A stretch of 32,051 nt of DNA from Candidatus Nomurabacteria bacterium (GTDB taxonomy: Bacteria; Patescibacteriota; Minisyncoccia; Phycocordibacterales; UBA9973), in NCBI GenBank assembly GCA_026395955.1, contig JAPLXR010000008.1, positions 69,179-101,229 of the forward strand, given 5' to 3'. The notes below the pieces were generated by a model. That model did not search any database and had not been told where the DNA came from. It was given only the letters and a program-made list of their open reading frames with translations. Numbering within the stretch: position 1 is the first letter of the stretch; each line of letters begins with the position of its first letter. Both the position numbers and the translations under genes were made by a program. Below are positions 23,820-28,397 of the stretch, piece after piece.

Positions 23820-26300
23820 CTATGCTCCGTGGCAATGTTTGTATTTTATTGTAGTACCGTCTTCTTTTATTTTTCCACAAGGACAAGGGTCATTACGGCC
23901 AACTTCACTAGAATCAGAAAAATCATTTTGTGGAGTTTTATTACCTACTAATACAACTTGAGGTTCTTCTGCTACAGTTGCTTGAACGTTTTGAACGTTC
24001 TCAACATTCATATTTTCAATCATAGAAAAAACTTGTTCTTTAAATGTAAATTCCATTTCGCGGAACATTTTCAAACCTTCTTTTTTATATTCAATAATAG
24101 GTTCACGCTGACCATAAGCACGGAGGTTCACAGAAGAACGTAAATAATCCATAGCTTCGATATGTTCCATCCATAAAGCATCTGTAGTATACAATGCAAT
24201 ACGACGTACTGTTTCATAAAAATTATCTTCGCCTACTTTTGAAAGTTTATTTTCAATTATTTTATCAGCACCTTCAACACCATCAGATATCTCTTTCAAA
24301 ATATTTTTAATTTCTTCTTTATCAGAGAAAAGCATCTTTTGGCGACGAGCATAGATAGTCTGACGTTGACGGTTCATAACATCATCATATTCGAGAGTAT
24401 TTTTACGAGAATCAAAATGGAAACCTTCTATCTTTGCTTGAGCATTTTCTAAAGTTTTAGAAATAAATTTATTTGCAATTGGTTGATCTTCAGGAATACC
24501 GAAACGTCCCATCATAGACTTGATCCTTTCCGCACCGAAAACACGCATTAGATCGTCTTCTAGTGATACGAAGAATTGTGTCGCACCTGGATCCCCCTGT
24601 CTACCAGAACGTCCACGAAGCTGGTTGTCTATTCTGCGTGCTTCATGGCGTTCAGTTCCGAGAACAAAAAGACCACCGACACTTTTTACTTTCTCATATT
24701 CTTCTTTTGTTGCAGGATTTCCTCCGAGTTTGATGTCGATACCACGACCAGCCATGTTTGTAGCAATAGTCACAGCACCTAGGCGTCCAGCTTGAGCAAT
24801 AATCTCTCCTTCTTTTTCATGATTTTTAGCATTAAGTATTGTGTGTTGAACTCCTTCTTGTTTTAAATACACAGAAAGTAACTCGTTTTTCTCAATAGAT
24901 ATAGTACCGATAAGTACAGGAGTACCTAAAGTATTTAATTCTTTTATTTTTCTGGCAATCGCTTGGAATTTTCCTTTTTCAGTTTGGAAAATAACATCTC
25001 CATGATCAATACGTGTCACAGGACGATGAGTAGGAATAACAATAACGTCTAAACCATATACTTTCAAAAATTCTTCGGATGAAGTTTCAGCTGTTCCTGT
25101 CATACCAGAAAGCTTTTTGTAAAATCTAAAATAGTTTTGGAAAGTAATAGAACCAGATGAACGAGTTTCTTTTTCAATCTTTACTCCTTCTTTCGCTTCG
25201 ATAGCTTGGTGTATGCCTTCACTCCAACGACGTCCTGGTTGTAATCTACCTGTAAATGGATCCACAATAATAACCTCACCTTCTTTGACTACATAGTCTT
25301 TATCTTTTTCAAAAATAGCCATAGCCTTTACTGCTGTTTCTAAATGGTGAACATATTTAATTCCCTTTTCTGTATAAATATTTGAAATACCGAGTAAGTC
25401 TTCAGCTTTTGTAATACCTTCATCTGTCAGAGAAATAGCTTTTAATTTTTCATCTACTTTAAAATCAGTATCTTTTTTCATTTTACGGGCAATTTCTGCA
25501 AATTGCATATAAAAATCCTCTGAATCACCTGATGGTGAAGAAATAATAAGCGGTGTACGAGATTCATCTATTAAAATAGAGTCAACTTCATCGACAACAG
25601 CATAAAAATGACCACGTTGAACGAGTTGATCTTTTGATGTAGCTAGATTGTCTCGCAAATAATCGAAACCATATTCGTTGTTTGTACCATAAGTAATATC
25701 TGCTTCATAAGCCTCTCGACGTGAACATGGTTTCAAAAAATCATAAATAATTTTAAATTGACCTACGACATCTCTTTCTTTGTCTTCTTCTTTGTGTGTA
25801 GGGTCGTATTTATAAGAAACATTTTGTGAATTCACAATTCCAACAGACAAACCTAAAAAATTATAAATTTGTCCAATAAGTACAGCATCACGACGAGCAA
25901 GGTAATCATTCACAGTAACGACATGCACACCCTTACCCATAAGTGCATTTAAATACACAGGCAAAGTAGCAACGTTTGTCTTTCCTTCTCCTGTTTTCAT
26001 TTCAGCAATCTTTCCAGAATGTAATACCAAACCTCCAATAAGCTGAACATCATAATGTCTTTCATTTAGACATCTCTTTGAAGCTTCACGAACGAGAGTA
26101 AAAGCTTCAGGTAAAATACTATCTAAAGTTTCTCCTTTATTTAGTCTATCTTTAAATTCAGCTGTTTTCTTTGGAAAATCCTCATCTTTCAAGTCTAAAA
26201 CAGTGCTCTCTAAAGCATTTATTTTCTTAACTATTTTGTCAGCATCTTTAATAAATGAAGAGCTTGCATTTCCAAACATATTTTTTAATCCGAATACCAT
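23820..26300 (-). CDS. secA: Preprotein translocase ATPase SecA
   Basis: Drives Sec-dependent export through SecYEG by ATP hydrolysis. The 826 residues include Walker A MKTGEGKTNVATLP near residue 105, the DEAD-like VVDEVDSILIDESRTPLI, TGTAETSSEEF, and the second motor domain with TNMAGRGIDIKLGG and GRSGRQGDPG. The C-terminal zinc-binding tail CPCGKIKEDGTTIKYKHCHG keeps the CxC...CH ligands. I chose ATG 26300, not 26327, because an extended -10 (TGCTAATAT, 26316-26308) lies within the upstream codons and ends 7 nt before 26300. The signal peptides of the secreted proteins in this window depend on this pathway. Confidence 0.97.
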   Translation of the reverse strand: MVFGLKNMFGNASSSFIKDADKIVKKINALESTVLDLKDEDFPKKTAEFKDRLNKGETLDSILPEAFTLVREASKRCLNERHYDVQLIGGLVLHSGKIAEMKTGEGKTNVATLPVYLNALMGKGVHVVTVNDYLARRDAVLIGQIYNFLGLSVGIVNSQNVSYKYDPTHKEEDKERDVVGQFKIIYDFLKPCSRREAYEADITYGTNNEYGFDYLRDNLATSKDQLVQRGHFYAVVDEVDSILIDESRTPLIISSPSGDSEDFYMQFAEIARKMKKDTDFKVDEKLKAISLTDEGITKAEDLLGISNIYTEKGIKYVHHLETAVKAMAIFEKDKDYVVKEGEVIIVDPFTGRLQPGRRWSEGIHQAIEAKEGVKIEKETRSSGSITFQNYFRFYKKLSGMTGTAETSSEEFLKVYGLDVIVIPTHRPVTRIDHGDVIFQTEKGKFQAIARKIKELNTLGTPVLIGTISIEKNELLSVYLKQEGVQHTILNAKNHEKEGEIIAQAGRLGAVTIATNMAGRGIDIKLGGNPATKEEYEKVKSVGGLFVLGTERHEARRIDNQLRGRSGRQGDPGATQFFVSLEDDLMRVFGAERIKSMMGRFGIPEDQPIANKFISKTLENAQAKIEGFHFDSRKNTLEYDDVMNRQRQTIYARRQKMLFSDKEEIKNILKEISDGVEGADKIIENKLSKVGEDNFYETVRRIALYTTDALWMEHIEAMDYLRSSVNLRAYGQREPIIEYKKEGLKMFREMEFTFKEQVFSMIENMNVENVQNVQATVAEEPQVVLVGNKTPQNDFSDSSEVGRNDPCPCGKIKEDGTTIKYKHCHGA

Positions 26301-26307
26301 GAGCTGT

Positions 26308-26316
26308 ATATTAGCA
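26308..26316 (-). promoter_or_regulatory. Extended -10 of secA, leaderless type
   Basis: TGCTAATAT on the minus strand, 7 nt upstream of ATG 26300; no clear -35. Confidence 0.7.
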
Positions 26317-26340
26317 TAAATTGACATTTTTTGCGAGTTA

Positions 26341-26378
26341 TATAAAAAAAATAAAAACCCCGATTACTCGGGGTTTTT
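26341..26378 (-). terminator. Terminator between the Lys/Ala peptide gene and secA
   Basis: AAAAACCCCGA (26353-26363) and TCGGGGTTTTT (26368-26378), followed on the minus strand by TATTTTTTTT. Confidence 0.9.
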
Positions 26379-26390
26379 ATAAAGAAGAGA

Positions 26391-26462
26391 CTAAGCTCTT
26401 TTCTTTGCAGTTTTCTTTGCTGCTTTCTTTGCTACTTTCTTTGCTTTCTTTTTTGCTGCCAT
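26391..26462 (-). CDS. Tiny Lys/Ala-rich histone H1-like peptide (23 aa)
   Basis: A 23-codon ORF, ATG 26462 to TAG 26391, with the composition MAAKKKAKKVAKKAA plus KKTAKKRA: eleven lysines and eight alanines, with KKxA/KKA repeats. This is the composition of the C-terminal tails of histone H1 and of bacterial H1-like proteins that bind DNA. It is closely followed by a strong intrinsic terminator, which supports expression as a separate unit. DNA or RNA binding is an inference from charge. No obvious promoter is visible close by. It is far shorter than typical H1-like proteins, so it could also be a remnant. Confidence 0.65.
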   Translation of the reverse strand: MAAKKKAKKVAKKAAKKTAKKRA

Positions 26463-26679
26463 AAAATTTTTATTGAAATTAAATTTTTAATTAGTTTTGC
26501 AATAAAACGACCTTAGAAAAAAATTTATAAAATATTTTTCTAAAAAATAATTATTGCAAAGAACTATATTAATTATCTCGCATAAAAAATATTAATACAA
26601 TACTTTTTTAACAAAACTGTGGATAACTTTTTAAAAAAAATATTTATAAAATTAAAAATTAAAAACAAAATAAATATTT

Positions 26680-26787
26680 AATAAAAACTTTTTTATTTTT
26701 TAGAGACTTGGGAGCGCGACGGCGCGAGCACGAGGAATTTTTCAGCAGAAAAATATCCGTACTCTAAAAATGAAAAAGTTTTTAATT
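26680..26787. repeat. Imperfect 26-nt inverted repeat enclosing a GC-rich structured core
   Basis: The outer arms (26680-26705 and 26762-26787) share AAAAACTTTTT and TTTTTAGAG in inverted orientation, with only a few mismatches or shifts. The 56-nt core (26706-26761) is sharply richer in GC than the surrounding DNA and holds CGCGACGGCGCG and a hairpin GGAATTTTTC...GAAAAATATCC. It has no plausible gene. It looks like a dispersed repeat, a miniature mobile element or an RNA domain. Confidence 0.65.
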
Positions 26788-26796
26788 ACAAACAAA

Positions 26797-26914
26797 AAAA
26801 TCGCCTTCATTTGAAGCGGGTCATGGCTAACCTCCAACATATGTGCCTATGTGAGTGCGATAACCCGCTACAGATAAAAACGATTCTGTATATAAATATA
26901 CGATATTTACTTGT
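26797..26914 (-). ncRNA. Candidate small RNA or leader (about 118 nt)
   Basis: On the minus strand an extended -10 TGCTATAAT (26929-26921) predicts a start near 26914. A small hairpin CTTCAAATGAAG with flanking CG pairs and ATTTTTTTG ends transcription near 26797. The middle can form GCGGGT...ACCCGC enclosing an ACATA...TATGT hairpin. The 3' ACCCGC arm overlaps the base of the terminator stem, so the two structures compete, as in attenuators. A mini-ORF (ATG plus four codons, peptide MTRFK) preceded by GGAGG lies in it. No known family was recognised. Confidence 0.5.
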
Positions 26915-26920
26915 ATTTAA

Positions 26921-26929
26921 ATTATAGCA
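26921..26929 (-). promoter_or_regulatory. Extended -10 for the candidate RNA at 26797-26914
   Basis: TGCTATAAT on the minus strand. The region upstream is the terminator of the UbiA-family gene; no good -35 is present. Confidence 0.6.
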
Positions 26930-26930
26930 T

Positions 26931-26966
26931 AAAAATAAAAAACCCATAGCAATATATACTATGGGC
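26931..26966 (-). terminator. Intrinsic terminator of the UbiA-family gene
   Basis: CCCATAG (26943-26949) and CTATGGG (26959-26965) form the stem. On the minus strand TTTTTTATTTTT follows. Confidence 0.85.
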
Positions 26967-26984
26967 CCTTTAAATAAGCTTATT

Positions 26985-27824
26985 TTAAAATTTACCAACA
27001 CATGGTAAACAAGATAAAGAAATAATAACTATAAAAATACCTATATCTAATGTTAATTTAGATACATCTTTGTCTCTGCCTGAATTCTTTGCAAAGAATA
27101 ACATGTAACCGGATGCAAAAAAACAAAAGATACCAACATAATAAAAAGTCATTATCAATAATTTTTCTGGAGGTAAAAATATTGCTATCAATCCTGCTGT
27201 AAAAATTAATATTCCAGCCAATTTTAAACCATTCTGATCTGTAATCCTTCTCTGAGTGAAAATTGTTTGCTTGTAATTAAGATCATTATTTCTATCTTCA
27301 TAATCTTTTATTACTTCCCTACCAAGAATTAATAAAAATACAATCAAAAAAAGCATTATTGAAATAGAATAATATTCTTCCATAGAAACAAATAATAATG
27401 GTGATGCACTTATAAGAGCGGTAATCATTGACGGTATGAATACTAATTTTCTTGAATATGAATAAAATACCCCAACAGAAATACAAATAATTAATAAAAC
27501 AAATTGCGGTATATTAATCACGGAATATTTGTAACAAATAACAATGACAAGTACAACAATTTCCCATAATAAATACAGTGCTCCTTGTAATTCTTTTGCA
27601 TGATTAAAAGCAAAATATTTACCTTTTCTTTTGTCGTTATCTCTGTCGTGATAGTCGTTTTGTATCATTGTAAGGCAAGCAATACAAAATACAATAAATA
27701 CTATGAACCAATTTGTTGTTTTATTTACCATAGCATAACCGACATGAACTAAAAGGCCTGCTGGTATAGTCATAGAAAGTCTGAGACTTTTAATAACTTC
27801 TTTAAAGATAGATTCTTTTTCCAT
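26985..27824 (-). CDS. UbiA-family prenyltransferase
   Basis: An integral membrane protein (279 aa, about eight or nine hydrophobic helices) with the two aspartate-rich motifs of UbiA prenyltransferases: NDYHDRDNDKRKGK near residue 56 (NDxxDxxxD) and GREVIKDYEDRNND near residue 168 (DxxxD). These bind the Mg-diphosphate of a prenyl donor. The family attaches prenyl chains to quinone rings, haem, or glycerol phosphates. The acceptor cannot be told. A quinone or lipid role would fit with the NDH-2-like protein in this window, but that is speculation. The C-terminus ends LSCLPCVGKF with two cysteines. It is monocistronic with its own terminator. Confidence 0.85.
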   Translation of the reverse strand: MEKESIFKEVIKSLRLSMTIPAGLLVHVGYAMVNKTTNWFIVFIVFCIACLTMIQNDYHDRDNDKRKGKYFAFNHAKELQGALYLLWEIVVLVIVICYKYSVINIPQFVLLIICISVGVFYSYSRKLVFIPSMITALISASPLLFVSMEEYYSISIMLFLIVFLLILGREVIKDYEDRNNDLNYKQTIFTQRRITDQNGLKLAGILIFTAGLIAIFLPPEKLLIMTFYYVGIFCFFASGYMLFFAKNSGRDKDVSKLTLDIGIFIVIISLSCLPCVGKF

Positions 27825-28088: not shown

Positions 28089-28094
28089 ATATTT

Positions 28095-28386
28095 ACAGGT
28101 GTCAGACAGTTGCGCTCTACTTTTGTAGAGTGAGGAAAGTCCGAACACACAGTGATTCAATTCACAAATGTAGAGGGTAATTCCCTCCCGTAGCGATACA
28201 GAGTTGCGAACAGAAACGACCCGGTTAAGTCCGGCTGAAACGGCTAAATACTTACACGTGTGCAAGATCGTGCTTTGGCTTCGGCCATTGAGAATCGCTT
28301 GAGCCTCCGAGTAATTTGAGGCCTAGATAGATAACTGTCGATTTCCCTTTTAGGGATTGAACAAAATTCGGCTTATAGGCACCTGT
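28095..28386 (+). ncRNA. rnpB: RNase P RNA (bacterial type)
   Basis: The catalytic RNA that trims the 5' ends of pre-tRNAs. P1 is formed by ACAGGTG (28095-28101) with CACCTGT (28380-28386). The conserved core GAGGAAAGTCCGAACAC follows near 28130, GGGTAATTCCCTCCCG near 28175, ACAGAAACGACC near 28212, the GGCTGAAACGGCTAAA block near 28233, and the signature 3' core AACAAAATTCGGCTTATAGG near 28360. At 292 nt it is compact compared with the roughly 377 nt of E. coli. A terminator follows at once. Confidence 0.96.
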
Positions 28387-28397
28387 ATAAAAATGAG

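Follow-up and report, generated by a model that had tools for sequence, protein, structure and literature searches.

To our knowledge, little is known of DNA packing or cell-cycle timing in the ultra-small Patescibacteria; within the open-licence library searched, we found no publication on Lys-rich nucleoid proteins, histone H1-like proteins, or comparable small proteins of Patescibacteria (Candidate Phyla Radiation) and none on DnaA-box-linked transcription in Patescibacteria. In E. coli, the small open reading frame (ORF) of SecM lies directly upstream of secA and exerts leader control. The Lys/Ala peptide ORF described here (KA) shares with it the small size and the same-strand position directly upstream of secA, but KA shows no export signal and has its own terminator, no conserved arrest-like block was seen among 70 KA peptides of the genus, and the secA gene near KA has a -10-like element of its own. 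For the Burkholderia-type H1-like proteins of NF038053 and for AlgP of Pseudomonas, we know of no DnaA-box promoter or secA linkage. Hc2 (HctB) of Chlamydia trachomatis is 165–237 aa long and varies in size through gain and loss of repeat units (PMC2848022). KA peptides resemble Hc2 in their Lys-rich H1-type repeats and their length variation, whereas they measure only 13–80 aa. They also resemble the NF038053 proteins and AlgP (PMC9239181) in being H1-like bacterial proteins, although the NF038053 model, at 195 positions, is far longer.

We analysed a 32,051-nt stretch of DNA (the window) from a Candidatus Nomurabacteria assembly of 699 kb that is 94.9% complete [Table 1]. The sequence-only reading of this window had described a 23-residue, histone H1-like Lys/Ala micro-ORF with a dedicated terminator, and both parts of that description hold, as the frame runs intact from ATG to TAG, is conserved among relatives, and is followed by a hairpin and T run. 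Pfam and NCBIfam scans of the 23-aa peptide gave no match, and neither did the HU fold (PF00216). Eight longer members from the order gave nothing significant: one weakly matched PF07382 (HC2; cut-off 40 bits) at E = 1.5 and 9.3 bits, and two of the eight matched NF038053 (cut-off 80 bits) at E = 3.2 and 4.8, with 7.4 and 8.0 bits. KA peptides nonetheless display HC2-type traits, namely a Lys/Ala-rich, disorder-promoting composition and length variation; by profile the KA peptide is outside the known H1-like families, though alike in make-up. Genes of this class are missed by profile libraries because they are short and low in complexity. We also considered the peptide as a replacement for HU and rejected this, since HU (PF00216) is encoded as a separate gene in 72 of the 80 genus genomes and KA is thus not making up for the lack of a nucleoid protein.

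Table 1. Features of the KA locus, with positions counted along the window.
Feature	Coordinates	Strand	Basis
Perfect DnaA box TTATCCACA, 44 nt upstream of TGCGAGATAAT	26618..26626	minus	sequence match
-35 element TTGTAT, 17 nt from the -10	26595..26600	minus	position read by eye; ATTGT conserved in 65-locus consensus
-10 element GATAAT within conserved TATGCGAGATAATTAA	26572..26577	minus	sequence, consensus
5' untranslated leader of the KA mRNA	26463..26565	minus	start point inferred from the -10
Leader hairpin, 5' arm, TTGCAATAA	26551..26559	minus	covariation, 36 leaders
Invariant GGTCG directly ahead of the 3' arm	26508..26512	minus	leader comparison
Leader hairpin, 3' arm, TTATTGCAA	26497..26505	minus	covariation
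KA peptide ORF, 23 aa, MAAKKKAKKVAKKAAKKTAKKRA	26391..26462	minus	ATG...TAG frame, 23 codons
Intrinsic terminator-like hairpin separating the KA ORF from secA	26351..26380	minus	13 pairs, then T run
Extended -10-like element of secA, TGCTAATAT, beyond the terminator	26308..26316	minus	read by eye
secA, conserved downstream neighbour of the KA ORF	23820..26300	minus	homologues downstream in relatives

The KA gene is real and conserved. Searching by the SecA N-terminus, we located secA in 76 of the 80 genus genomes, at 77 places, and inspected the upstream sequence of every one of them (30 loci and 47 stretches). The earlier reading had proposed looking in relatives for short Lys/Ala ORFs upstream of secA, with breakage or absence there counting against the gene. 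Such an ORF was found on the secA strand at 71 of the 77 places, 70 of them complete and one (G100) cut by a contig edge with its in-frame tail present; it was absent at only five (G008, G017, G027, G065, and G089), and the call in G006 is undecidable. With one detector applied to both strands of the genus stretches, 73 Lys/Ala ORFs were counted on the secA strand and none on the opposite strand; the occurrence of the KA ORF upstream of secA is far beyond chance. The 70 complete ORFs encode 13–34 aa, begin mostly with MAAKKK (45/70) or MAKKKK (19/70), and end mostly with KKRA (55/70). G040 retains the gene, although secA lies about 1.5 kb away. A contig search with the ORF DNA pattern returned 17 matches, with titles naming Nomurabacteria, Staskawiczbacteria, Paceibacterota, Parcubacteria, Patescibacteria, and 'uncultured bacterium'. 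One of the matches, a contig carrying the KA-secA locus of the genus, is titled as a Burkholderiales MAG (L185) and is probably a mislabelled record.

Beyond the genus, SecA was searched in 128 genomes of the order and found in 119, and the upstream DNA was read in 109 of these (29 loci and 80 stretches); as one of them, G094, belongs to the genus, 108 others were counted. A KA-type ORF of 13–80 aa precedes secA in 67 of the 108 genomes, spanning 50 of 79 families, and is missing from the secA-upstream DNA of the other 41. These order-level ORFs contain H1-tail-like motifs such as AAPKKK and TTRRK, and the strand control on the order stretches gave 71 KA-type ORFs on the secA strand vs. 2 on the opposite one. 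At the level of the class, four of nine genomes carried a KA-type ORF, three of these more than 450 nt from secA. In other classes, none of 30 genomes, drawn from the better-scoring phylum matches (SecA was found in 230 of 239 phylum genomes), had one upstream of secA. A pattern search for MAAKKK starts matched in 105 of 397 order genomes; of the 30 loci fetched, four (L156 and L166–L168) turned out to be the beginnings of long proteins unrelated to KA, L154 has a frame of 7 codons, L163 is truncated at the edge of the locus, and all others are short KA frames with secA downstream in most.

The openness of so purine-rich a frame is no proof of coding because stop codons need T, and other signatures of translation were examined. 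Where ORFs of the genus differ in length, the frame is preserved and both ends are kept, the start as well as the KKRA terminus. ORF pairs of equal length, which are not independent pairs, differ 605 times at the third codon position, 310 times at the second, and 234 times at the first. Lysine is encoded by AAG in 61% of cases vs. 13% in 22 genes of the window, and the mean longest A run in KA ORFs is 6.3, vs. 10.3 if Lys codons were used as in the genome. The codon use and the excess of third-position substitutions indicate that the ORF is translated, and the scarcity of long A runs speaks for a product that is needed and smoothly translated. Purines predominate at third positions (GCA for 79% of Ala; CGA for 54% of Arg vs. 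6% in window genes), and the ORF may therefore be constrained at the RNA level too; this choice, CGA included, exceeds what avoidance of A runs needs. In composition, the 70 genus peptides comprise 57% Lys plus Arg and 25% Ala and lack D, E, F, W, Y, L, and I altogether, whereas their interior residues vary and have no fixed positions. Composition held over lengths of 13–80 aa is the pattern expected of a disordered polyelectrolyte.

The KA gene looks like a transcription unit of its own, comprising a DnaA box, promoter, leader hairpin, ORF, and terminator, of which the box, the promoter, and the leader RNA had gone unmentioned in the earlier reading. A terminator-like hairpin lies within 130 nt of the KA stop at 54 of 70 genus loci, vs. 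1.2 expected from shuffling, at a stop-to-stem distance of 4–62 nt (median 13 nt). Past it, a loose TGnTAnnnT-type -10-like pattern precedes secA in 69 of 70 genus stretches, a raw count with no shuffle baseline; the ATG at 26300 is judged the likelier secA start over that at 26327. Upstream of the ORF, the genus consensus from 65 loci contains the block GTTATCCACA...ATTGT...TATGCGAGATAATTAA. The motif TTATCCACA, the canonical DnaA box, was found at 64 of 70 genus KA loci; among the six without it is one where the upstream sequence extends for just 42 nt. Its offset to TGCGRGATAAT is 44 nt (52 loci) or 45 nt (nine loci), which places the box 49–50 nt before the -10 at 61 of 70 loci. Outside the genus, TTATCCACA lies within 350 nt, always in forward orientation, at 49 of 71 KA loci of the order and class, and the box-bearing loci span 40 families of the order. 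In these, TATAAT or GATAAT follows 47–51 nt past the box at 39 of 49 loci vs. 3 of 30 other TTATCCACA sites; the chance expectation of such 9-mers in the 32-kb window is 0.3.

The same motif occurs at dnaA itself. Upstream of seven dnaA genes of the genus, we found TTATCCACA in four, TTATTCACA in one, and weaker variants only in two; in the five with a box (L369–L372 and L374), it lies 69–77 nt before the start. Its presence there strengthens the case for the motif being a DnaA box, and at these promoters it is likely an autoregulatory one. The dnaA promoter, with TTATCCACA or TTATTCACA preceding its TATAAT -10, thus resembles that of KA, although the distance from box to -10 is 62–63 nt at dnaA and 49–50 nt at KA. 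Genome-wide, TTATCCACA is not enriched in the source genome (12 matches vs. 11 with the reversed control) and is enriched in all seven relatives counted. DnaA domain IV was not found in the source assembly, which is 94.9% complete, and is present in all seven relatives searched. The KA locus was also considered as a replication origin and rejected: in G094, the 388 kb read contain no cluster of three TTATNCACA within 1 kb, and there is no skew minimum at the locus. The box is present at other genes as well: in G093 and G094 (L200 and L193), a gene for an MscS-like membrane protein, named by eye, has TTATCCACA upstream of its promoter, and its leader holds GGTCG as the KA leader does; this is possibly a second gene under the same control.

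Between promoter and ORF, the leader carries a stem near its 5' end and GGTCG, which is present in all 65 genus leaders with a recognised -10. The long-loop class, 36 leaders out of the 65, was aligned with no recourse to pairing; in this alignment, all eight pairs of the stem show changes on both sides, with 16 double-change cells vs. 2.1 in shuffles and 96.5% of positions paired, and slid versions of the stem drop to 17–76% pairing. A gap-free MAFFT alignment that misplaced the 5' arm gave 70% pairing and 14 double-change cells vs. 4.8 shuffled, and 16 such cells when slid by -3. The other 29 leaders are short, vary little in the stem, and are outside the pair count; a covariance model built from them matched 39 of the 80 genus genomes, at one place each, and all 39 matches lie at the secA/KA locus by comparison of coordinates by hand. 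Long-loop leaders, including that of the source genome, are mostly missed by this short-leader model. Outside the genus, GGTCG occurs in 38 of 49 box-bearing leaders of the order and class, and the best stem around it, convincing in some, beats shuffles at the 5% level in only 15 of those 38; support for the stem is thus good within the genus and only partial beyond it. Rfam gave no match above gathering at the KA locus, with only weak sub-threshold matches across 26300–27000.

Conservation across the order, the promoter with its DnaA box, and the folded leader together suggest a minimal protein that binds DNA or RNA and goes unrecognised by the annotation libraries searched. A nucleic-acid-binding role, which the earlier reading had proposed, would agree with the composition and with the DnaA-box promoter. 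It is with middling confidence that we regard KA as a stand-alone micro-gene of Nomurabacteria/Paceibacteria encoding a nucleic-acid-binding polycation, with a DnaA-box promoter, leader control, and its own terminator. Because composition is conserved and the interior is not, the product is most readily explained as binding nucleic acid electrostatically, as H1-like bacterial proteins do. Transcription would start from a sigma-70-type promoter with a single DnaA box at a fixed upstream position; if DnaA acts there, output would follow DnaA and hence the replication cycle. The folded leader with its invariant GGTCG would add a second, RNA-level control, which suggests feedback, and the mRNA would end at its own terminator ahead of secA. 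The peptide, very short, disordered, and H1-tail-like, would accumulate and bind by charge, its likeliest task being to aid in neutralising and packing the chromosome. Against this nucleoid reading, the secA neighbourhood is left unexplained by a nucleoid role, and Lys/Ala richness would also suit binding to RNA, the ribosome, polyphosphate, or membranes. Further points against the reading are the presence of HU in most genus genomes, the secA places without KA (5 of 77 in the genus, and 41 of 108 genomes in the order), and, in the source genome, the missing DnaA domain IV and the lack of TTATCCACA enrichment. The link between KA and secA is real; it may amount to no more than a gene order that became fixed, or both genes may require similar timing.

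The ribosome is the partner in one alternative that we consider possible, if unlikely: a ribosome- or RNA-associated microprotein, i.e., a short basic peptide that fills an rRNA cleft and does not pack DNA, on the model of the ribosomal microproteins bTHX, bS22, and eL41. The size, charge, and near-universal presence of KA in the genus would fit, as would the Arg-rich, ribosomal-looking members such as those ending in KRRR (7/70). Unlike the three models, however, KA peptides vary from 13 to 80 aa around an interior with no fixed positions, and those of the genus offer no hydrophobic or aromatic anchor. A DnaA-box promoter would be unexpected for a ribosomal microprotein; conversely, the fixed geometry of the box makes replication-linked expression likely, which favours DNA over the ribosome as partner. 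The conserved position directly upstream of secA and the T-run hairpin close behind the stop (median 13 nt) also recall SecM and pyrBI leader control, in which case KA would be a leader peptide whose translation decides termination at the hairpin before secA. We find this quite improbable, as secA appears to have its own -10 past the hairpin, the stop-to-stem distance (4–62 nt) and the ORF length (13–34 aa) both vary in the genus, and a nearly purine-only ORF would, by sequence reasoning, give no antiterminator arm. Codon choice keeps A runs short, contrary to what a stalling peptide would call for, and G040 has kept the gene about 1.5 kb from secA. Still less credit is given to the view that the locus makes a regulatory RNA whose ORF is incidental: the covarying hairpin, the invariant GGTCG, and the mostly purine third positions (GCA 79%, CGA 54%) hint at RNA constraint, but length changes keep the frame, N- and C-terminal residues are fixed, and substitutions are in excess at third positions.

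A protein-level alternative came from the sequence-only reading, which had paired the peptide, as candidate substrate, with a SET-domain lysine methyltransferase encoded at 777–1190 on the minus strand, on the precedent of the Chlamydia SET protein and H1-like proteins. The domain is real (PF00856, E = 5.7e-24), the peptide is rich in the target lysine, and G040 has a 49%-identical SET gene upstream of KA on the same strand. The pairing finds no echo in distribution: a SET protein occurs in 15 of the 80 genus genomes (E ≤ 1e-3), and five of 80, the source genome included, encode one with at least 52% identity, whereas the peptide is present at 71 of 77 places, and among 160 loci scanned the two genes are close in one genome only (G040, two overlapping loci). 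The precedent itself is contested: according to PMC2904774, NUE of C. trachomatis left Hc1 unmethylated in vitro, while an earlier report for C. pneumoniae, cited there, is in its favour. We therefore judge it very improbable that KA is the substrate of this enzyme, and the nucleic-acid-binding polycation is the reading that we prefer. The SET protein has a Cys-containing tail and is patchy in the genus.

Found in 50 of 79 families of the order, with a DnaA-box promoter and a covarying leader, the KA gene would offer a direct handle on DNA packing and cell-cycle timing in ultra-small bacteria. Should it pack DNA, the peptide would rank with the smallest nucleoid proteins; should the ribosome be its partner instead, it would represent a new ribosomal microprotein specific to this lineage. 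Going further, we can conceive of KA as a gene-encoded counter-ion of the chromosome that is coupled to replication and belongs with the smallest of histone-like systems, kept across an order of ultra-small bacteria. Its DnaA-box promoter, fixed in geometry, would scale output to the activity of DnaA, and the GGTCG leader could tune that output by sensing free polycation or by being bound by the peptide; this fuller picture is speculative, and we would not expect it to hold in all its parts. Elsewhere in the window, an element of about 85 nt resembling a hairpin RNA lies at 26800–26885 on the minus strand, with core TCGCACTCACATAGGCACATATGTTGGAG and a predicted consensus fold of -34 kcal/mol; it has no Rfam match at gathering, the core ACATAGGCAC occurs in 68 of 77 genus secA-upstream stretches, and the element directly precedes secA in the five genus genomes that lack the KA peptide. 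A class A RNase P RNA lies at 28094–28391 on the plus strand.
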